From assembly GCA_029582155.1 (NCBI GenBank), contig CM055907.1, positions 12,680,133 to 12,744,132 of the forward strand: DNA of 64,000 nt, written 5' to 3'. The position numbers and the translations under genes were made by a program. The first letter of the stretch is position 1; every line of letters starts with the position of its first letter. The notes under the pieces were generated by a model. The model did not search any database. It was given only the letters and a program-made list of their open reading frames with translations, and was not told where the DNA came from. This document shows, in pieces, positions 6,093 to 64,000 of the stretch. Origin of the DNA: Panopea generosa. Its lineage: Eukaryota > Mollusca > Bivalvia > Adapedonta > Hiatellidae.

Positions 6093-8240
6093 CACATGGT
6101 ATTACAGACAACATGCATACGTAGGGTCACAATGGGGTGTTTAGATATACTATGTTTCCAAAGCGCGTTCCTATTTCCTACAGTATTATGTTGGGCATCA
6201 TTGGGATGTGTATTACAGACAACATGCGAACATAGGGTCACGTTGGGGTGTGTAGACACATATTATGTTTTCATAACGCGTTACTATTTCCTACAGTATT
6301 ATGCTGGGCAACATTGAGATGTGTATTACAGACAACATGCAAACATAGAGTCACATTGGGGTGTGTAGACCCATATTATGTTTCCATAGCGCGTTGCTAT
6401 GTCCTACAGTATTATGTTGGGCATCATTGGGGTGTGTATTACAGACAACATGCGAACATAGGTTCACATTGGGGTGTGTAGACACATATTATGTTTTCAT
6501 AGCGCGTTACTATTCCCTACAGTATTATGCTGGTCACATTGGGATGTGTATTACAGACAACATGCGAACGTAGGGTCACATTGGGGTGTGTAGACACATA
6601 TTATGTTTTCATAGCACGTTACTATTTCCTACAGTATTATGCTGGGCAACATTGAGATGTGTATTACAGATAACATGCAAACATAGAGTCACATTGGGGT
6701 GTGTAGACCCATATTATGTTTCCATAGCGCGTTGCTATTTCCTACAGTATTATGTTGGGCATCATTGGGGTGTGTATTACAGACAACATGCGAACATAGG
6801 TTCACATTGGGGTGTGTAGATATACTATGTTTCCAAAGCGCGTTCCTATCTCCTACAGTTTTATGTTGGGCATCATTGGGGTGTGTATTACAGACAACAT
6901 GCGAACATAGAGTCACGTTGGGGTGTGTAGACACATTTTATGTTTTCATAACGCGTTACTATTTCCTACAGTATTATGCTGGGCAACATTGAGATGTGTA
7001 TTACAGACAACATGCAAACATAGAGTCACATTGGGGTGTGTAGACCCATATTATGTTTCCATAGCGCGTTGCTATTTCCTACAGTATTATGTTGGGCATC
7101 ATTGGGGTGTGTATTACAGACAACATGCGAACATAGGTTCACATTGGGGTGTGTAGACACATATTATGTTTTCATAACGCGTTACTATTTCCTACAGTAT
7201 TATGCTGGGCAACATTGAGATGTGTATTACAGACAACATGCAAACATAGAGTCACATTGGGGTGTGTAGACCCATATTATGTTTCAATAGCGCGTTGCTA
7301 TTTCCTACAGTATTATGTTGGGCATCATTGGGGTGTGTATTACAGACAACATGCGAACATAGGTTCACATTGGGGTGTGTAGACACATATTATGTTTTCA
7401 TAGCGCGTTACTATTCCCTACAGTATTATGCTGGTCACATTGGGATGTGTATTACAGACAACATGCGAACGTAGGGACACATTGGGGTGTGTAGACACAT
7501 ATTATGTTTTCATAGCACGTTACTATTTCCTACAGTATTATGCTGGGCAACATTGAGATGTGTATTACAGATAACATGCAAACATAGAGTCACATTGGGG
7601 TGTGTAGACCCATATTATGTTTCCATAGCGCGTTGCTATTTCCTACAGTATTATGTTGGGCATCATTGCGGTGTGTATTACAGACAACATGCGAACATAG
7701 GTTCACATTGGGGTGTGTAGATATACTATGTTTCCAAAGCGCGTTCCTATCTCCTACAGTTTTATGTTGGGCATCATTGGGGTGTGTATTACAGACAACA
7801 TGCGAACATAGAGTCACGTTGGGGTGTGTAGACACATTTTATGTTTTCATAACGCGTTACTATTTCCTACAGTATTATGCTGGGCAACATTGAGATGTGT
7901 ATTACAGACAACATGCAAACATAGAGTCACATTGGGGTGTGTAGACCCATATTATGTTTCCATAGCGCGTTGCTATTTCCTACAGTATTATGTTGGGCAT
8001 CATTGGGGTGTGTACTACAGACAACATGCGAACATAGGTTCACATTGGGGTGTGTAGACACATATTATGTTTTCATAGCGCGTTACTATTCCCTACAGTA
8101 TTATGCTGGTCACATTGGGATGTGTATTACAGACAACATGCGAACGTAGGGTCACATTGGGGTGTGTAGACCTATATTATGTTTTCATAGCACGTTACTA
8201 TTTCCTACAGTATTATACAGGGGCATATTGGGGTGTGTGC
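6093..8240 (+). repeat. 113-bp tandem satellite with 901-bp higher-order period
   Basis: About 19 units of 111-113 bp, each containing ATTACAGACAACATGC, CACATTGGGGTGTGTAGAC, GCGTTACTATTTCC and TACAGTATTATG. Positions of the first landmark are 6100, 6211, 6324, 6437, 6549 and 6662. Variant units recur exactly 901 bp apart (eight monomers): a unit at 6361 recurs at 7262, one at 6699 at 7600, one at 6923 at 7824. This shows amplification of an 8-mer block. It starts just after the recombinase of the retroelement. All 60- to 97-codon ORFs here are periodic by-products. Confidence 0.95.
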
Positions 8241-36130: not shown

Positions 36131-38670
36131 GCTAAACATTACACAACAACTACAGTTATATGCTTTCCTATAGATGTCACGCTAGTTCTTGAATTGAAAA
36201 TTCATTTTTCCGTGAAAATCATACCGATTTTAACAGATTAAATTAAGAGACATTATGCCTTTTTAATACTTGACAGCACAAATGTGCGAAATTGAATGTT
36301 TTTTTTCAACATTTACCACAGTTATGCCCCTACCCATTATAAAAAAACATTAAGAGTGCATGCATTTTTGTGAGGTGTTTATATGTCATAATTGGATCGT
36401 ATTGACCTATGTTTAAATATATGTTTTAAGTAAATGTGCGTACAAATATTGACATAAGTGAAAAAGGAAAATGTTGACACAGCAGACAACGGAATTCAAA
36501 GCCCTGTTCTGACAAAATTGTTTTTCTTCAGGCCGATTCCTCGAAATCATGACAAATATTCCTATACGTCTCACACCACTATTAGATTTCCCATAGGGCT
36601 CCATTGTAACATTTATGTCCAAAACAGAGTGAAAAATCTAATTCTGCAGAATGTGTTTGGGCTCAAATTCTTCACTGGTTTAAGATATGCAAATATAAAG
36701 GGAAAAAAAAGCATTCATTGACCATGTTTTCTTTTTAAAATTCAATGCTTTTGTGAGACCTATCAATTTTCAGAGTAATAATATTTCAACTATTCGCCCT
36801 AGATGCGGTTCGAATCAACAATTCTGAAATGATACAGAAATGTCCAGAAAGCTGGCATCAGCATCAAATTTTCAGTGGTGATTTCTGAAATAATGACCAT
36901 TTAACTCAAGTTTTATTTTTACCTTCTTCATTTTAAGGGAGATAAAAGTGGTGTCCTGAAGAGGACTTTTTTTAATTTCAAGATTCTATATTTACATATT
37001 ATGTAATAATACTCAATACAAGTTCAATAAAGCTAAATGCATCCTCATATCTGAACTAGATCGGAAATAAAATAAGTTTTAGTGACACATGGTTTCGGTC
37101 AAAATGCTGCTTTTTCTTGTAAAAAAGCAAGAATTCCCAACCGGAGTACCAAGGGAGATAATAGTGGTGTGAGTGCTATAATTCACTACGCAGCTTTAAA
37201 ATATTTCACTTCTTTCTTACTTTGTCGTGCTTTATCGTGCTTTATCTTGCTTTATATTGTTTAATCTTACTTCATCTTGCTAATTTTACTTTATCTTGTT
37301 TAATCTTAATTTATCTTGCTTTATTTATTTCATCACTTTATCTTACTTTATCCTTGCTTTGTCACCTTTTGTTGTTTTATCTTGCTTGATCACGTTATCT
37401 TATTTATAATGACTTATCACTTTATTTGATTTTATTTTGCTTTATCGTTGTATCTTACTTTATCTTGCTTTATCACTTTATCTTACTTCACCTTGCTTTA
37501 TTTTACTTTATCTTGCAATATCACTTTATCTTGCATATCACTTTATCTTACATTATCTGGCTTTTTCACTTTATCTTAATTCATCTTACTTTATCGTACT
37601 TTGTTTTTCCTTATCACTTACCTATTTTCATTCGATTAGCATGCTATATCTCATTATTAATCCAAATAAATTGCATACAATAGTCCAACAACACTGGTAT
37701 GTTCACATTTTTCATTTGATTAAAAACCCACAACATTTCACACAAAGCCAATGGCTACTTCAATTAATCACACACTATAATTTGCAGATGTTTTTTTTTC
37801 ATACCAATGTGACATGTTGCATGCTGATGAATTTGGTACGAAAAATATGACTTTTCAATGGTTCGGTGACAAAAACTGTTTTTTATCCTTATTAATAATT
37901 CACGATGATTGCAATCAATTGTAATTAAATAAATAGGAACTATTACGGTACATACATTCACATATCACATATCGCATTGCCTGATCTAATTAATTGATAG
38001 TATGGTATTTGTGTAGAGACACCCTCGGCAAATTTTTCGATAATTAATAACCGATTAATGCTTGTTTAAATGAGATTATAATAAAATATTTATTATTCCT
38101 TATTGATTAAATGCTGTTAGGAAGACAACAGTTGAAAAGGTTATGAGAGAAAAGCAATCAGACAGAAACCTTTTTAAATTTGTATTGATTTTTTAAAAGC
38201 ACATTTTTAATGAATAATATTCGCTGTGGCCTTTGTATTATCCAAACTATTCAACTCGTTATTTTACTGAACAATCAATGATCGTTAAATTGAATCTGTC
38301 TTAAAAGGGATTACGTCAGGAATAAAATGCTATCATCAATTAAAAACAATTCAAATTGTTTTGTATGTCAGATCCACAAAACCGTTGGAAACTCGATATT
38401 TAAACCGGAGTTGTAAACTTAAACCATAATTCCCATTCTAAAAACAGACAAGAAGAAATAATGCTTGACCACTTCGCATCGTCATAAGGACTCTTTCCAA
38501 GATGAAACAAGTTTACAACGTGTAAACCTGTATAACGGATTGAACTGAAATCAAAATATAATTATGTGACTCTTTTAATACGTCACAAAATATGTTATGT
38601 TTAACCAGGAAAGTATATTTTTGTGTAACCTAGACGCGTGGCAAGGAAATTATCCCTTTGCAATATATCA
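35940..38670 (+). repeat. Dispersed ~2 kb repeat, copy 2
   Basis: Second copy of the block at 1-1970, longer by insertions at about 36550-37180 and 38300-38550. Both copies include the SINE body, the CTTTATC tract and the AATACGTCACAAA block, so the SINE was probably present before duplication. Confidence 0.6.
37205..37620 (+). repeat. CTTTATC low-complexity tract, copy 2
   Basis: Same word set as 720-1110. The 85- to 137-codon ORFs here are compositional. Confidence 0.85.
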
Positions 38671-45640: not shown

Positions 45641-46824
45641 AGGTATCAAACGTGTGGTTCTCTTGTGGTCTTGTTTAATTTAACTACCATACACGTGCAA
45701 ACATGCAGGTAAGGCTTGTCGTGTGTAATTAAGGTACCAAACGTGTGGTTCTCACGCCGTTCGTGCTTTAATTTTGTAAATTAGGTACAAAACGTGTGCT
45801 TAACATGCATTTGGCGCTTGCCTTGTGTAATTTAAGTACCAAACGTGTGGTTCTCATTCTGTTGGTGCCTGTCCTGTGTATGTTAGGTATCAAATGTGTG
45901 GTTCTCAAGCTGTTGGTTCTTCCCCTGTATAATTAATTACCAAACACATGCTTATCGTGCATATATCGCTTTTCTTGTGTAAGTTAGGTATCAGTATCAA
46001 ACGTGTGGTTCTCATGCTGTTGGTGCATGTCTTTTATATTTTAGGTATCAAATGTGTGGTTCTCATGCGGTTGGTGCTTCAACTGTGTAATTTAAGTACT
46101 AAACACATGCTTATCGTGCATGTAGCGCCTTTCTTGTGTAAATAAGGTATCAAACGTGTGGTTCTCATGCTATTGGTGCATGTCTTGTATATTTTAGGTA
46201 TCAAACGTGTGGTTCTCATGCGGTTGATATTTCAACTGTGTAATTTAAGTACCAAACACATGCTTATCGTGCATGTAGAACTGTTCTTGTGTTAGTTAGG
46301 TATCAAACGTGTGGTTCTCATGCTGTTGGTGCTTTAATCGTCTAATTTAGGTACCAGACGTGTAGTAATCTTGCAGTTGGTGCTTACCTTGTGTAATTTA
46401 AGTACCAAACGCGTGTCATGTGCTTCTCATGCAGGTAACACTGACTTGTCTTGTATAAAAGTATCAAACGTGTGCTTATTATGCATTCGGTGCTTTTCTT
46501 GTGTGAGTTAGGGACCAAACGCGTGCTTATCATGGAGTTGATGCTTGTCTTGTGTCATTTCAGTACCAAACATATGCACATTAATGGTGCAGGTGACACT
46601 TTTCTTGTGTAAAGCGTGTGGTTCTCATGTCGCAGGTGCTTTATTTGTGTAATTCAGGTACTAAACATGTGCTTTTAATGCCGTGTGAGGCTTAATTGTA
46701 TATTTTAGGTACCAAACGTGTGATTTTCATTTGGTTTGTGTTTGGCTTTTGTAATTTCAGTATCAAACAAGTTCTTACCTTGCAGGTAGTGCTTCTCCTT
46801 TGTAATGTAGTTACCAAACGTGTA
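45641..46824 (+). repeat. ~51-bp minisatellite, left part
   Basis: About 23 units around GGTATCAAACGTGTGGTTCT then CATGCTGTTGGTGCTTGTC and TTGTGTAATTTA. Units diverge by 10-25%. It is interrupted at 46825 by a DNA transposon and resumes at 52985. Confidence 0.9.
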
Positions 46825-46975
46825 TAGCCCGGCAGGATAGTGAAAAAATCTTTCAGTTAATGATGCAAGCATGAAACTTTTCATACCTAAAGTTTAACTA
46901 CTCCTAAATTGGAAAAACACATTAGCCACGTGAAATTTTCGTTACGGCGGCCATTTTCCAAGATGGCCGCCAAAC
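46825..46975 (+). repeat. Left terminal inverted repeat of CXC transposon
   Basis: Ends in a near-palindrome at 46946-46971 (GGCGGCCATTTT then AAGATGGCCGCC) that resembles two opposed YY1 sites (AAGATGGCGGC). Confidence 0.8.
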
Positions 46976-47943
46976 CCTTGATTTTCATTGTATTTACCTA
47001 TGGTACGTTTCGGTTTTGTGTTACTGTTGTGTTCGGAAACATTGTACTGGAATATAAATGGTTTCTGTGGACATATATAATTATAAGCTTTCTAAACATA
47101 TCCAGTAATAAGGTTTTAGAAGTGTTTTTGCGAATAAAATAAAAGAAAAGGTTCCTCTTCCCATAATTATTTAGTAGAATTTTTATCATTTTTTTAGGAA
47201 ATGTGGAAGATAACCAAATTAAAGCTCATAATACGTATCTTTTATGTCTATTTCTATTTAGGGTAATAGTAAAATTGACAACAAGTGAGATTTAAACGTC
47301 AGAAAACTATTTCATAACTATGAAAAGAAGAAAAACGGAAACTTTAAAATTAAAAAAAAATTCTAAAAAAAAAAAAAAATCAATGTCGTGTATCTACGGA
47401 CTGTAAATGAAAATATTTTGTCAAATTAATAATTAATTTCTTAATCAAGTTGATATATCGGTCTTACTAACCCTTATAACAAAAATAATATATATAAAGA
47501 GTGGTCGTCAAAGCACAACCTGGGCATACTGGTGACGCCACTGCTGTGAAACTCAGCATGGGGTCCAGTGTCAGCTATTTTTTTTTAATTTTAGTATCCC
47601 AAATGCTATCAAGCTTGCCCCACATACATTATCGCCATGGTAAATCTTGTATGTTTGTGAGATAGCCGCACCTGAATTGACAGGGTATGCCAGCGCGGGA
47701 GAGCCGAGCCAAGGATAACGGGGCTTTAGTTATCCGGAAGGTGTACAGATCGGACGGGATTTAAATGGCACTGGATGAACGATCGGGCTAGATGTAGGGC
47801 TTTTTTATTTTGGTTCGAATCTAGTTGTATCCCATACACCAATGTGCTTGTTATTTTTTCAAGGTGGTAAAAGGATAACCCCTCGGCCTTGGATTCTCAG
47901 ATATACATTTTGACAGCAATTGTTTATATTGAAAATAATCTAA
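46976..47943. other. 5' untranslated part of CXC transposon
   Basis: Non-coding. Poly-A-rich at 47349-47380; a more GC-rich block at 47640-47760 (GGGAGAGCCGAGCCAAGGAT) of unknown nature. The ORFs at 46909 and 46998 overlap in opposite directions and are not credible. Confidence 0.5.
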
Positions 47944-50900
47944 ATGATGACAGATTCGACGGTATTATCGCTATCTAAAGTAACTGATTGGCAGAAATGT
48001 TGTCTGTGTCAAACCGTCAAAGATGAGGATCTGAAATCTCCCCCTTCGAGGTATGAGGTGACACCAGATAGGGATGGCTATGCAATGATAGCAAGGAATT
48101 TTCCCTTATTTAAAGAAATACATCAGTTACCGATTATACTGGAACCAAAACGGTTAGACGATGGAGATGGAATAGCAGAGACCTTAAGGAAGAACAAAGC
48201 TGTATACCATCAGAGCTGTAGACTCCTGTTTAGTAACAGCAAGCTTGAGAGGGCGACGAAAAGGTCAGCTGGTCCCAGTAAGACTGTGAAAATTCCTGAA
48301 AAAACTAGACGGATGAGCTTGGAAACTCAAGTATGTTTTTTGTGTGAAAAGAAAGATCCGTCGCATGATCTCCGCCGTGTCATGACAATGGAGTTAGACA
48401 AGAGGCTGAACGAATGTGCAAGGACTCTAAATGATGGTAGACTTCTAGCAATTTTAAGTGCAGGAGATGCTGTCGCCCAAGAACTACAATACCATCGGTC
48501 GTGTTTAACAAAACTTTATAACAGGGAGAGGTCACATATAGTTATAGAGGAAAATATACCAAATGAAGACAGATATTTATATCCTCAAGTTTTCTCCGAG
48601 CTTCTTGTCTACCTTACAGAAACCATAACAAGTAGCAATGAGCCAGTGTTGTTTCGATTAGCAGATTTAGTCAGTCTCTATCGGCAACGATTGATACAGC
48701 TCGGTGTTGACGACCCTAGTATTAATTCAACAAGACTGAAAGAACAATTATTATCTGAAATGCCCTAATTAGAAGCGCATAAAAAGGGGAGAGATATACT
48801 TTTAGCATCTACTGAAGATATTGGTTCAGTTTTATCAACGGCCATGGATTATACTGAAGCCATCATTATCACCAAAGCTGCAAAAATCATACGAAAACGT
48901 ATGATCGATCATAAGTCCTCTTTTTCTGGAACATTTGATGACAGTTGTGTAGAAGATTCAATTCCATCTGTACTTCTTCAGTTTGTTTCTATGATAGAGC
49001 ATGGGGCTGACATTAAATCTCAGCTACGATTTGGAGCGTCTAAAACAGATTTGGCATTATCTCAGTTGCTTCAATATAACTGCTACACAAAATATCAAAC
49101 TGAAGGAAAACTGTTACGGCATTCAAAAGATCGTGAAACCCCTTTTCCTATATTTCTTGGACTGTCAGTATACTCGAAGACCAGAAAGAAACACCTCGTC
49201 GAATTGTTACATGATCATGGCCTAAGTATATCTTATGACAGGGTTCTGGAAGTTTCTGCTCAACTAGGTGATGCTGCAGTTGACAAATACAAGGCAGAAG
49301 GCGTTGTATGCCCAAACATCTTAAGAAAATCTGTGTTCACTACGTCAGCTATGGATAATATTGACCACAATCCATCAGCCACAACAGCCACATCGTCATT
49401 CCATGGCACGAGCATATCAATATTCCAACATCCCTCGGCAGGACATGAAGGAACTTTGCAAGAACGATGCCAGATTGATACGAAAGTAAAGACAATCTCC
49501 AAGCTTCCTGAATCGTACACAAATGTTCCGCCCGCTTTCTTCGGGAACAAAAATCCTCAACCTCCACATGTCGAAAGCCCAAACCTTCTTACGTCTGTTG
49601 ATCTTAAACCGGATTTCGAATGGTTACAAAAGGTGTGTCTTTCTGACACGGTTAATTCTGATAGAGTTGACATATCATGGGCGGTCCATCACGCTTCAAT
49701 GAAGAGAGGCCCTTCATTTGAGGTTACCATTACATCATTATTGCCACTTCTAAGGGAACAAGCTCATTCTGTTGCAACCATTTGTCATTGCTTGAACAAA
49801 ATCAAGGAAGTTGTATCTCACCTGAATCCGGGTCAAGTTCCTGTGGTAGCTGCTGATCAACCAATATTTGCCACAGCAAAACAGGTTCAGTGGCACTGGC
49901 CAGACAAGTACGGCGAAGACAGATTTGTGATTATGTTTGGTGGACTTCATATTGAAATGGCTGCTCTGAAATCGTTAGGTACTCTGTTGCAAGATAGTGG
50001 ATGGACTACTGCTCTTGTAGAATCTGGAATAACAACTACCGGTACTGCCGATTCATTCCTTTCTGCATCAAGTGTGACAAGGACACGTCAAATGCATCAA
50101 GTGACAGCTAGTTGTCTGTATAAGCTTTTGAAGGAATCTTATGAGGCATATGTAATTGAAGTACGGACTGATGATCAACAGGAACAAAGTTTCGAAGATT
50201 GGTGTGACATGCGCAAGACCCAGAGCCCGCAATTTCAGTATTGGTATTTGATATTTGAAATGGAACTTTCAATATTAGCCCTGATAAGATCTTTCAGAGA
50301 GGCAAATTTTGACCTGTATTGCCAAGCTTTGCAAAAACTAATACCATTCTTCTTTGCAAACAACAATATCAATTACGCTCGCTGGTTACCAATTCATCTC
50401 AGAGATATGTTACGTCTTGGTAGCACTCATCCTCAAATAAAGAGTGAATTTATCAAGGGCAATTTCATAGTTCATAAATCCAAACGTGGATTCTCTGCTT
50501 TGGCAATGGATCAGGCCCATGAACATGCAAACGCTGTCATTAAGGGAGAAGGTGGGGCGATCGGTATTACAGAAGATCCCTCTGCGCTTAGAAGATGGAT
50601 GGTTGCTGGTCCAGAAATAAGCCATCTTGTCAATACGTATGAGGAGATTTCTGAACAGAAAGAAGCAAACGAAGAAGAAAGGCATCTTGAACAGACTACT
50701 CATGCACAAAGAACTTTCTTGGATCGCGTCTCAAAGTTGTACAACACTATAAGAGAGATGGATAATCCCTTCATGGAAGAATCAAAAGATCTGTTGACTA
50801 TTGATTCAAAACAAGTTGCCCACCCGAGTGTAGCTGAAAGGCTTGCAACTCATTATGAAAAGGGCAAGGAAAAATTTGATGAATTTATAGCCAGTCTGTC

Positions 50901-52422
50901 TACTGGATCAGAGAGCAAGTTTTATGACCCGATAAAGAAGCAGAAGTTAGCTTTTTTCTCTCAAAATCCAGATGATTCATCTAAAGATATGAAGCAGAAA
51001 ATACTGAAAGACGATTGTGCACTCTTCTCACAGTTGTTCATATCTTGCCAAGCCAGAGACTGTGATTTGAATGACTTTTTCAAACACGAGAATCAACCTT
51101 TCCCTGCAGCCTTGAGTGATGGTGGTAGACTCCATTCATGTCAGAAATCCCAGCTTGCAAGTATTCTTGAGGATGCAGCAATAAATTCTGATGAAAGTCC
51201 TGAAGTAGAGGCATTGATTATTGATGGTTCAGCATTAGTAAATTCAATAACACCCAGAATCTCAAAAACATTTGATCAGTATGCCGAACTTGAGGTCCTT
51301 CCTAAAATGCAAAAGTATAGCTCAACATATGCTAGAACTGATATTGTGTTTGATGTTTATAAACCACAAAGCCTAAAAGCAGAAACTCGCTCGAAAAGAG
51401 GCTTCGGGACACGCCAAAGAGTAACAGGAAGAGGAAAGGTTTCCAAGAATTGGCATAGTTTTATGAGGGACAGTTCAAATAAAACCGAGCTCTTTGAGTT
51501 CCTAGCAGATAAGATTGCTGAAAACTGCACAGGTAACGTTGTTTATGTTACTCGAGGAGAGAATGTTATTTGCAATCAGATGGTTGATGTGGATCATTTG
51601 TCTCCTTGCAATCATGAGGAGGCTGACACAAGAATATTTGTACATGTCAAACACAGTATTGAAGAAGGAAAGAAGCGAGTTATGATTAAGGCAAATGACA
51701 CAGATATTTTTGTAATTGCTTTGAGCGTTTTCTCCAATCTCAAAGAACTAGGCTTACAACAACTTTGGATTGAGTTTGGTACAGGCAAAAATTTGAGATG
51801 GATACCTGTGCATGATATTACTAATGGTATCACGCAGGAAAAGTCGAAAGGTATTTTATTTTTCCATGCTTTCTCTGGGTGTGATAATGTATCAGGTTTT
51901 AAAGGGAAAGGCAAGAAATCTTTATGGCAAACCTGGGATTTGTGCCCAGATGTATCTTATGTGTTCAAGAAGTTAAGTAGATATCCCCCAGTAGTAGATG
52001 AGATGTATATTCAGATCCTTGAGATGTATGTTGTTTCCCTATACGACAGATCAAGTCCTGTGACAACCGTTAATGAAGCAAGATTTGACATGTTTGCTCG
52101 AAAACAGCGTTCGTTTGACGCCATTCCACCTACCAGATCAGCATTAGTTGAACATATAAGAAGGGCATCTTACCAGGCAGGTTGCATTTGGGCCCAATCC
52201 ATGGTATGCATAATGGAAGAAACCAATCCAAGTGACTGGGGTTGGACGCTTAAAGACAACACATGGAGTGTTGTGTGGACTACACTTCCTCAGATCGCAG
52301 ATTCGTGTAAACAACTAACCAAATGTGGTTGCAAGAAAGAATGTCGAGGCCGATGCAAATGTCACAAACTGAGTTTACCGTGTACTGCTCTTTGTAGTTG
52401 TATCTGTGATATATGTAGTTAG
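47944..52422 (+). pseudogene. Transposon protein: zinc modules, RNase H-like core, PIN/XPG-like nuclease, CXC domain
   Basis: One 1,492-codon frame broken by a single TAA at 48766-48768 (275 codons before it, 1,192 open from ATG 48844). N-terminus: two Zn modules, C19-x2-C22 with H89-x2-C92 and C131-x2-C134 with H184-x2-C187. Residue numbers now count from 48844: DNIDHNP near 172, AADQPIF (D338), FGGLHIEM and MDQAHEHANAV (D556, E560) are candidate acidic residues of an RNase H-like transposase. LIIDGSALV (D794), HEEADTRI (E925-D928), NDTDIF (D952, D954) and SGCDN (D1014) match the acidic layout of PIN/XPG nucleases. C1161-C1191 is a CXC (tesmin-like) DNA-binding cluster with ten Cys. TAA may be a CAA change, read through, or split the protein; start at 48844 is otherwise arbitrary. 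Confidence 0.8.
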
Positions 52423-52833
52423 TTTAATTAGCTTGGATTGGATTGGATTGATGCCAGACACGAACTCAAAAAGGGGTTTGTTCAATATTGTATTATTTAT
52501 TGTGTGTACATATTCTTTAATTTAGTTCTAAATGATGTAGAAAGGCTGTTTTGCCTCTTGAAAACTGTTTAGTTGAATAATGTTCATTCTGGAGGAGATT
52601 TTGTTCATTGAATATATTGTATTGTTGTTATGTATTAGATAATTTAGATTTTTTTCCGCCAATTTTAGTTCAAAATGGCCGCCAAATGTAAGATAATGAT
52701 GGCTTTTGCATATTTGTGTTGAAATGTGTATATAGTAAGGTCAGATACTAAGAATTGTAACATTTTATACGTCTGTTGGAATTTTAGGTGCGATTTAGAC
52801 TGTTTCTCCTTTAAACCTGCATTCAATGTCCGC
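52423..52833. other. 3' untranslated part of CXC transposon
   Basis: Short tandem GGATTGGATTG just after the stop, then an internal AAAATGGCCGCCAAATG at 52672-52688, a third copy of the TIR motif. No gene. Confidence 0.6.
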
Positions 52834-52984
52834 CATCTTGAAAAATGGCCGCCATATTAAACTTTTTTCGTGGCTAATGTGCTTTTTTGTCAGAGGGATA
52901 GATGAGCTTAATTCATGCAAAATTTGGTGCTTGCATCATTAAGTGAAAGATTCTTGTGATATTTTGAGTTAAGCTGCCCAGCTA
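52829..52984 (-). repeat. Right terminal inverted repeat of CXC transposon
   Basis: Reverse complement pairs with 46825-46975; contains TCCGCCATCTTG and AAAATGGCCGCC at 52829-52853. Confidence 0.8.
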
Positions 52985-53365
52985 GTAGTTCCCATGCCGT
53001 AGTTGCTTTAATTTTGTTATATAGTAATTAAAGGTTTGCTTATCATGGAGTTGGTGCTTGACTTGAGAAATTCAAGTACCAACCACCTACCCTTTTATCA
53101 TGCAGGTAACACTTGTCTTGTGTAATTTAAGTACATAAGGTGTGGTTCTCATGCCGTTAGTGCTTTAATAGTGTAATACATGTACCAAACGTGTGCATAT
53201 CATGCAGTTGGTGATTGTCTTGGGTAATATAGGTAACGCTGGTGCTTTAATTGTGTAATTTTTGTACCAAACATGGAGATGGTGCTTGTCTTATGTGTAA
53301 TATAAGTACGGAACACGTGCTTATCATGCATGTAGTGCTTGTCTTGTGTAATTTAGATAGAAAAT
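52985..53365 (+). repeat. ~51-bp minisatellite, right part
   Basis: About 7 units (GTAGTTCCCATGCCGTAGTT, CAAACGTGTGCATATCATGC), continuing the array of 45641-46824 after the transposon. Confidence 0.85.
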
Positions 53366-62039: not shown

Positions 62040-63626
62040 AAGCAGAAATAACATCAGCAGCAGAAGCAGTAGAAGCAGAGCAGCAGCTGCAGCAGCAGTG
62101 GTAGTAAAAGTAGAAGCAGTAGTAATAGTGGTAGTGGTGGTAGTAGTAGTCATAGAAGTGGAAGTAGTAGTAGAAGAAGTAGGAGTAGTGATAGTTGTAG
62201 TAGTAGTGGTGGTGGTGTGATGTTAGTAGTAGTAGACGTAGTGGTAGTTGTAGTATAAGTAGTAGTAGAAGTAGTAGTGGTAGTATTGGTAGTGGTGGTA
62301 GTAGAATTAAGTATAGTAGTAGTAGTAATAGCAGTAGAAGTGGTGGTAGTAGTAGTTGTAGTGGTGGTGGTGGTGACAGTAGAAGAAGTAGTATTGGTGG
62401 TGGTGGTGTTGGTGGTGGTGGTGGTGGAAGTGGTGGTGGTAGTAGTAGTAGTAGTAATGGTGGTGGTCGGGGTAGTAGTAGTAGTAGTAGTAGTGGTATT
62501 AGAAGTAGTAGTATTGGTGGTGGTAGTGCAGTAGTGGTGGATGTAGTGGTGGTAGTAGTAGTGCAATAGAAGTAGTGGTGGTGTTGGTAGTAGTAGTAGC
62601 AGTAATATTGTTGATGGTGGTAATAATAATGGAAGTAAAAGTAAAAGTAGTGATAGTAGTAGTAAGTAGTAGTAGTAGTAGTAGTAGTAGAAGTAGTAAT
62701 AGTAATAATAGTAGTAGTAGTAGTAGTGGTGGTTGTGGTAGTGGTTGTCGTAGCAGTAGTAGTAGTAATAGCAGTAGTAGTAGTAATAGTAGTAGTAGTG
62801 GAAGTAGTTTGGTTGTGATGGTTGTTTTGATAGAGGTGGTGGTGGTGGTGTTTTCAGTAGTAGTAGTGGTAGAAGTGATGGTTGTAGTATTAGTAATAGT
62901 GGTTGTAGTAGTAATTATTATAATACTAGTAGTAGTAGTGGTGGTAGTGATGGTGGTAGTAGTAGTTGTAGTAGTAATCAGTAGTGGTGGTTGTGGTAGT
63001 GGTAGTAGTAATAGTAGTAGTAAAATTAGTGGTGATGGTGGTTGTAGTATTAGTAATAGTGGTTGAAGTAGTAGTTATAATAATAAAAGTAGTAGTAGTG
63101 GTGGTAGTGATGGTGGTAGTAGTAGTAGCAGTAGTAATAGTAGTGGTGGTTGCGGTAGTGGTGGTCGTAGTAATTGTAGTAGTGGAAGTACATGTAGTAA
63201 TAGTAGTAGTAGTAGTAATGGTGGTGATTGTAGTAGTAGTATTAGTAGTAGAAGAAGTAGTAGTTGTAGCAGTAGTAGTCGTTGTTGTAGCAGTGGTGGT
63301 TTTAGTAGAAGTAGTAGTAATAATAGCAAACGAAGTAGTAGTAGTAGTATCAGTAGTAGAAGTAGTGGAAGTAGTAGTAGTAGCAGTAGTAATAGAAGTA
63401 GTAGTAGTAGTGGTGGTGGTAGTTGTAGAAGTATAGGAAGTAATAGTAGTAGTAATAGAATTAGTAGTAGTTGTAATGGTGTTGGTGGTCGTGGTAGTAG
63501 TAGTAGTAGTATTGTTGGTGGTGATAGTATTAGTAGTTGTAATAGTAGTAGTAGAAGTAGTAGTAGTAGACGTAGTAGTAGTAGAAATAGTAGAAGTAGA
63601 AGTAGATATAATATTAGAAGTGGTGT

Positions 63627-63674
<48 letters not shown>

Positions 63675-64000
63675 TAGTATTAGCTATAGTAGTAGTAGTA
63701 GTAGTATTAGTGGTGGTGGTGGTAGTTGTAGTAGTAGTAGAAGTAATAGTAGTAGTAGTAGCAGTAGTAGTAGTAAAAGTAGTAGTAGAATTAGTTGTAG
63801 TTGTAATGTTGTTGGTGATGGTTGTGATAGTTATAGTAGTAATGTTGGTGTTGTTAGTAATAGTATTAGAAGTAGTATTAGTAATGGTTGTGATGGTGGT
63901 AGTAATAGTAGTGGTGGTAGTAGTAATAATAGTAGTAATAGTAGTAGTAGTAAATAGTAGTAGTAGTAGAAGTAGTTATAGTAGTGGTCGTAGTGGTTGA
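62040..64000 (+). repeat. AGT/GGT trinucleotide tract, continues past window end
   Basis: Nearly 2 kb of AGT, GGT, AAT, GAA and similar triplets, with cytosine almost absent from the plus strand. Units vary, so it is an old or interrupted expansion. It generates Val-, Ser- and Thr-rich ORFs up to 174 codons in several frames. Confidence 0.95.

Follow-up and report, generated by a model that had tools for sequence, protein, structure and literature searches.

A stretch of 64,000 nucleotides from the bivalve Panopea generosa (assembly GCA_029582155.1, contig CM055907.1, positions 12,680,133 to 12,744,132 of the forward strand; this whole stretch is called the window below) contains a transposon of 6,160 bp at positions 46825–52984, and raises the question of what kind of mobile element would carry zinc-type modules, a transposase-like core, a nuclease-like domain and a cysteine cluster in a single frame. 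The evidence points with considerable confidence to an autonomous cut-and-paste DNA transposon of the Academ superfamily, of the nuclease-bearing AcademX type, as judged by architecture and the length of the target-site duplication (TSD) rather than by comparison with a reference Academ sequence. It encodes one very large protein, in which a transposase appears to be joined to a flap-cutting nuclease of the DNA-repair type. The original prediction for this locus, which was made from the letters of the window, was right on the anatomy of the element and very probably right on its class.

The limits of the element agree to the base with those proposed at the outset, with GTA on either side and the ends at 46825 and 52984. 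The imperfect terminal inverted repeats (TIRs) of ~150 bp that had been noticed are real, as 129 columns align without a gap (46844–46972 against 52827–52955) with a score of 122, compared with a maximum of 40 among 500 letter shuffles of one side. The match is strong inward of base 20 on the left and of base 30 on the right, and the outermost 20–29 bp of the two ends agree mainly at TAGC and GGCAG. Related copies of a 51-bp host minisatellite reach up to the element, restart at 52994 and run to ~53364, in line with the earlier observation that the repeat resumes beyond the element, and when the element is removed together with one GTA the flanks rejoin in register with the minisatellite on both sides. 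The copy in the window is a recent insertion into this minisatellite, and its frame now has a stop codon.

Further copies were searched for in the element's own genome (1.474 Gb, 39 contigs). The protein search gave 41 matches from the 39 scored of 852 candidates, and 29 places were retrieved, 24 of which are copies with both ends, besides that of the window, and five of which (loci L040–L044) are distant relatives. At least 25 copies with both ends, the window's included, are dispersed over 14 contigs, with lengths of 6,111–6,170 bp and the exception of L038, which measures 5,714 bp and has an internal deletion of ~450 bp. The left 160 bp used as a DNA query (40 of 59 candidates scored) gave 25 matches of at least 95% identity, which are the same 25 places, and 16 weaker matches, which are right ends of known copies; no short derivative or lone end that might belong to a non-autonomous family was seen among the candidates scored in this left-end search. 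The ends read TAGCCC..CAGCTA in 25/25 copies, and a perfect 3-bp TSD flanks 22 of the 25. Two further copies, L025 and L023, form a dimer that shares one outer CCT duplication, and therefore 23 of the 24 insertion events, with the dimer counted once, have a perfect duplication. These 23 duplications represent 15 different triplets and are A+T-rich, at 77% compared with 65% across the 21-bp sites. Other copies with these ends and with 3-bp duplications were what the original prediction had proposed to look for, and the 25 copies exclude that the ends are confined to the window. The alternative of a host gene, or of a retrotransposon whose terminal repeats arose by chance, has only the long single frame in its favour; it is refuted by the 25 copies, which are scattered over 14 contigs, share the same end hexamers and mostly have target duplications, and it retains practically no probability.

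These 25 near-identical copies are probably the product of one recent burst. They differ from the column majority by 9–26 substitutions (0.15–0.42%) and from one another by 0.54% on average, and the tree of the copies is star-like, with terminal branches making up 89% of its length. The frame with a single TAA that had been described in the window is present as such (Table 1), and because of this TAA the window copy is not intact. The uninterrupted 1,492-codon frame occurs in seven of the 25 copies (L016, L017, L019, L020, L022, L023 and L025), the last residues of which differ from those of the window by one amino acid; since L023 and L025 are the halves of one dimer, the seven intact copies amount to six events. 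The earlier view that the insertion was recent enough to keep the frame is therefore correct as to recency, but the frame in the window is broken and the intact frames lie in seven other copies. Among these seven, 41 variable codons are nonsynonymous and 27 synonymous, compared with a neutral expectation of 3.08:1 (two-sided p = 0.007), a test that is approximate because of the shared descent of the copies and the selection of intact ones. On the simplest interpretation, the family has recently spread from sources that were functional.

The middle region of the protein would be a DDE transposase, judging from its conserved acids and from the mobility of the element. The candidate acids D471 or D474, D638 and E860 are unchanged in all seven intact copies, and 4/4 rows of alignment A3 agree at E860, with D638 found in all three rows that reach it. 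Amongst the distant relatives, DNIDHN is kept in L040 and L042, and the candidate acids are kept in L040, L042 and L043 where these are covered. Weighing against a DDE core, the position of E860 is occupied by K in the decayed L041 and L044 (both outside A3), the core has no relevant match in the PDB, and a single-sequence AlphaFold model of it, with a predicted local distance difference test (pLDDT) of 36.4, was unusable. Of the transposase-like core described originally, the conserved candidate acids and the past mobility stand, whereas the RNase H fold, given that no PDB match was obtained and neither model was usable, is presumed.

On either side of this core are cysteine-rich regions. The zinc modules described earlier are present as two zinc-type Cys/His modules, for which there is no matching Pfam model; L040 has retained the first module and L041 the CxxC of the second, and in other relatives the modules are retained in part. 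At the C-terminus, ten cysteines are spaced x1, x3, x3, x1, x6, x3, x1, x1, x2, which fits the consensus spacing of CXC/CRC (tesmin-type) domains, C-x-C-x(3,5)-C-x(3,4)-C-x-C-x(6)-C-x(3)-C-x-C, and six of the ten are invariant in 5/5 rows of alignment A5. No match to TCR (PF03638) or any other CXC model was obtained in Pfam with the window C-terminus or the five members of A5, and assignment to the CXC family was rejected, as no family model matches; what holds of the CXC domain proposed earlier is the ten-cysteine cluster and its CXC-like spacing. A match of the cluster to a defensin in the PDB (E 0.02) was dismissed as a chance match between cysteine-rich sequences. In the literature on Academ, at the level of listings and passages, no mention of a cysteine cluster in Academ proteins was met.

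The C-terminal third of the protein is probably a nuclease of the FEN/XPG superfamily, a reading on which two profile methods agree, neither of them strong alone. Members of this superfamily carry seven metal-binding acids in a set order, and the candidate domain has acids in this order according to hhalign, with D1137 and D1314 also placed by the comparison with Exonuclease 1. The EAD..DTD..CD series is found in the window copy and in 7/7 intact copies, and alignment A2, which consists of the window and seven relatives, has no variation in its 8 rows at E1226, D1228, D1252 and D1314. In distant relatives from the same genome (L040–L044, L046–L054), the motifs xxDGxA, D-x-Y..SxK..R..RG, E(A/T)D(T/S)R, D(T/S)D and CD..S.F...GK are largely kept.

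For the first profile method, a 12-row profile of the nuclease region (seven rows kept by hhalign; L040, L041 and L050 excluded) was compared with a 12-row profile of PolA-type 5' nucleases from bacteria and viral contigs, giving a score of 30.8–30.9 and an E-value of 0.0023–0.0035 as a single comparison. This score was reached by none of the shuffles of template columns (0/60 and 0/200, with maxima of 20.4 and 22.3) or of query columns (0/200, maximum 21.9), and the reversed template scored 13.1. The alignment pairs EAD with EAD, DTD with DKD, and CDNVSGFKGKGKKS with ADNIPGVAGVGEKTA, and the glycine-rich stretch paired in this way is the DNA-binding turn of 5' nucleases; the match extends beyond the last acid into a stretch of the form DN(V/I)xGxxGxGxK(S/T). 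E1226, D1228, D1252, D1254 and D1314 are in register with the PolA-type motifs, and D1094 and D1137 are so at a low posterior threshold only. For the second method, the A2 profile was run against all PDB chains up to E 10 and matched five sequences, four of which are Exonuclease 1 (E 0.1, 0.11, 0.15 and 0.44), the fifth being a thermosome (E 0.24). The two best Exonuclease 1 matches each consist of two collinear pieces, one with the second acid and the K/R stretch and one with the last acid, which are not significant by themselves (i-Evalues about 610 and 2.1).

A number of results weigh against a FEN/XPG nuclease. The hhalign probability is just 9–12%, its global mode returned a meaningless alignment of 13 columns (score 2.2), and the scores of six subsets of the query, which range from 15 to 24, lie at or near the shuffle maxima (window group 18.6, L043 22.5, L046-type 23.8, L054-type 15.0, all but the window group 20.1, window alone 17.4). 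In four cases the alignment falls on the same template stretch (within 109–230); that of the L046-type subset spans 15 columns close to the first acid, and that of the L054-type subset is elsewhere on the template. As the subsets are weak alone, the nuclease signal needs the combined profile. The best PDB E-value of 0.1 is modest, and no FEN protein was matched in the PDB by the 4-row nuclease profile A1. In Pfam, no nuclease family above the cut-off was met, the best relevant match being 5_3_exonuc_N (E 0.16) in one relative and at the same motifs, and the single-sequence AlphaFold model of the domain was unusable (pLDDT 33.8). Even so, the Pfam match in that relative and the two profile comparisons, each indecisive by itself, jointly make a domain of the FEN/XPG superfamily the likely answer.

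Such sub-threshold profile statistics favour the alternative that the C-terminal domain is a PIN/NYN-type fold outside the FEN/XPG branch or a catalytically dead DNA binder. A weak match to NYN_YacP (E 0.16) in one of eight relatives points the same way, as does the loss of single acids in decayed relatives, for instance of D1254, replaced by Y in L041 and L042, and of D1228, replaced by G in L044. The alternative is nevertheless improbable, given that the acid series is intact in the window copy and in every intact copy, that the 5'-nuclease match runs on past the last acid into the glycine/lysine stretch, and that Exonuclease 1 is at the top of the PDB profile search. The FEN/XPG assignment is also in keeping with the likeness of the domain to the 5' nucleases Exonuclease 1, FEN1, XPG and bacterial PolA in the order of the acidic motifs, in the K/R-rich stretch after the second acid and in the helix-hairpin-type glycine/lysine stretch past the last acid. 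It is unlike them in being longer and dissimilar between the second acid and EAD, in its fusion to a transposase and in a similarity below the reach of Pfam. The PIN/XPG-like nuclease of the original prediction, for which a profile search had been advised, is thus retained with its DxD/EAxxD/GCD motifs and a FEN/XPG profile match, albeit with modest statistics. A structure lacking an RNase H-like or PIN fold, which had been named as evidence that would speak against the prediction, was not obtained; as both models were unusable, the folds are presumed.

The same genome also holds relatives of the protein, in families that are for the most part decayed, have its nuclease and cysteine motifs and are about 25–62% identical to the window protein. 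The lineage therefore probably has a long history in this host. Outside the genome, no relatives were confirmed in viral contigs, the prokaryote genome collection or phages. Searches of PHROGs and NCBIfam gave nothing significant, and single-sequence queries matched nothing in the PDB below E 0.6. Seven candidate loci, L001–L006 (best tblastn E-value 0.25) and L007 (best 0.15), were dismissed as chance pattern matches because no better tblastn E-value was obtained, and a FEN1 motif scan of the viral contigs gave two contigs in which the matched frames were unlike FEN1 by eye.

With regard to family, Academ elements have TIRs and the nuclease of AcademX, a lineage that is reportedly to be found in Repbase and in work by Kojima in 2020, is of the XPG type. 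The element resembles AcademX in its 3-bp duplications, its TIRs and its probable nuclease, which occurs together with a putative DDD/E transposase. Duplications of 3 bp are not unique to Academ, and another DDE superfamily with this length, whether EnSpm/CACTA-like or unnamed, may have acquired a nuclease independently; it also favours this alternative that no part of the protein significantly matches a Pfam model and that the element is without comparison to an Academ reference. However, EnSpm/CACTA termini begin with CAC, and that superfamily is excluded by the TAGC termini found in 25/25 copies. The pairing of a nuclease with a 3-bp TSD is, moreover, the AcademX combination in the available part of PMC10045372, and a curated bivalve library, as far as its description in PMC10294476 was accessible, holds 100 Academ elements with a mean length of 5,565 bp, similar to the 6,160 bp of this element. 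An origin in another superfamily is accordingly unlikely.

The same part of PMC10045372 gives duplications of 3 or 4 bp for AcademX and of 9 or 10 bp for AcademH, a difference that its author ties to the encoded nuclease or helicase. AcademH, which is akin to the element in belonging by name to the same superfamily, was excluded for its wrong duplication length and because the window protein has no match to a helicase family up to E 10 in Pfam. The Academ-like or related superfamily suggested originally is therefore supported, and the fit is to the nuclease-bearing AcademX; the accessible text of PMC10294476 adds that Academ elements are expanded in bivalves. It detracts from the placement in Academ that it rests on architecture and TSD length, and that L037, alone among the single insertions, has an imperfect 3-bp duplication (TTA on the left, ATA on the right). 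The element is most likely a new, recently active addition to a known but poorly studied group.

Table 1. Positions of the features of the transposon and of its immediate surroundings, in window coordinates
Feature	Position	Strand	Details
Host 51-bp minisatellite	45714..46571	.	TRF-scored extent
Left target-site duplication	46822..46824	.	GTA, direct reading
Left terminal inverted repeat	46825..46972	+	starts TAGCCCGGCAG; first 6 bases identical in 25/25 copies
Transposase/nuclease frame	47944..52422	+	1,492 codons, one TAA at codon 275 (48766–48768)
Two zinc-type modules	47998..48504	+	CCLC (19–22) with HQSC (89–92); CFLC (131–134) with HRSC (184–187)
Transposase-like core	49354..50523	+	candidate acids D471 or D474 (DNIDHN), D638 (ADQP), E860 (DQAHEHAN)
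Probable FEN/XPG-type nuclease domain (approximate limits)	51190..51993	+	D1094, D1137, E1226, D1228, D1252, D1254, D1314
Basic residues of the nuclease domain	within 51190..51993	+	K1145, R1149, R1152
Helix-hairpin-type stretch DNVSGFKGKGKKS	from residue 1314	+	within nuclease domain
C-terminal cysteine cluster	52324..52419	+	ten Cys at 1461–1491, CXC-like spacing
Right terminal inverted repeat	52827..52984	-	ends CAGCTA
Right target-site duplication	52985..52987	.	GTA

Other repeats were also observed in the window. An array at 6099–8238 has a 113-bp unit in tandem, with 19 copies and a higher-order period of 338 bp, two separate arrays at 705–1118 and 37215–37602 have similar 10-bp units (ACTTTATCTT and TCTTACTTTA), and the end of the window (62097–63994) is occupied by ~1.9 kb of an AGT-type trinucleotide repeat with extreme GC skew.

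As to how the element might move, the DDE core would cut the 3' ends of the element and join them across a 3-bp staggered cut in the target. A more tentative role for the N-terminal zinc modules and the C-terminal cysteine cluster is binding to chromatin or to the long inverted repeats, and, equally tentatively, the FEN/XPG domain may cut the other (5') strand, or trim flaps at the ends or at the target gap. The dimer of L025 and L023 (G000:C14:42427188-42440222), in which the two units stand head to tail, bears on the cutting of the ends. At its junction, ..CCCAGC-TA-GCCCGG.., the TA that ends one unit and starts the next occurs once, which hints at ends cut with a two-base stagger. If the 5' strands were cut two bases inside, a join through self-complementary 3' TA overhangs would produce this very junction, though a microhomology join or a local duplication would produce it as well and is likelier. 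An ordinary tandem duplication after insertion, or a microhomology-mediated join, either of which would be uninformative on cutting by the transposase, is indeed the likely origin of the dimer. There is one such pair only in 24 events, its halves differ at just 4 positions (compared with 11 for the next closest pair of copies and a mean of ~33), so that either may be a copy of the other, and end joining often involves an overlap of 2 bp. Against such an origin, the junction lies precisely at both element ends within a single outer duplication, and a single TA is exactly what self-complementary 3' TA overhangs predict.

A bolder proposal is that the transposon uses its FEN/XPG domain to cut the second strand. 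In this scheme the 3' ends would be cut by the DDE core, and the 5' strands, two bases inside, by the FEN-like domain, which would leave 3' TA overhangs that are self-complementary. Through these, excised copies could become linked head to tail as circles or dimers and go back into the genome as a single unit, as L025 and L023 may have done. This proposal is rather unlikely to be correct, but if true, it would amount to a division of labour within one fused protein, with a DNA-repair nuclease as its raw material. TnsA and TnsB of Tn7 show a comparable division of labour. For KolobokP, the accessible part of PMC9587614 reports multimers in tandem inside one outer duplication, and circular intermediates figure among the models. 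Such multimers, and a DDD/E transposase with a nuclease in one element, are thus common to this element and to the nuclease-carrying Kolobok transposons of that paper, KolobokP included; in the same account, however, the nuclease of KolobokP is of the His-Me finger kind and its terminal repeats are long and direct, compared with a FEN-like domain, inverted repeats and one dimer in 24 events here.

In the literature surveyed, as far as listings and passages of it go, Academ is met as entries in annotation tables and remarks on classification, and not as an experimental system. The family described here is a clean test case, with 25 two-ended copies, several open frames, precise ends and a known duplication length, and its dimer yields a specific prediction on end cleavage. 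Should it be true that the FEN-like domain joins in the cutting of the ends, this would be an unusual recruitment of a repair-type 5' nuclease into a eukaryotic transposase.

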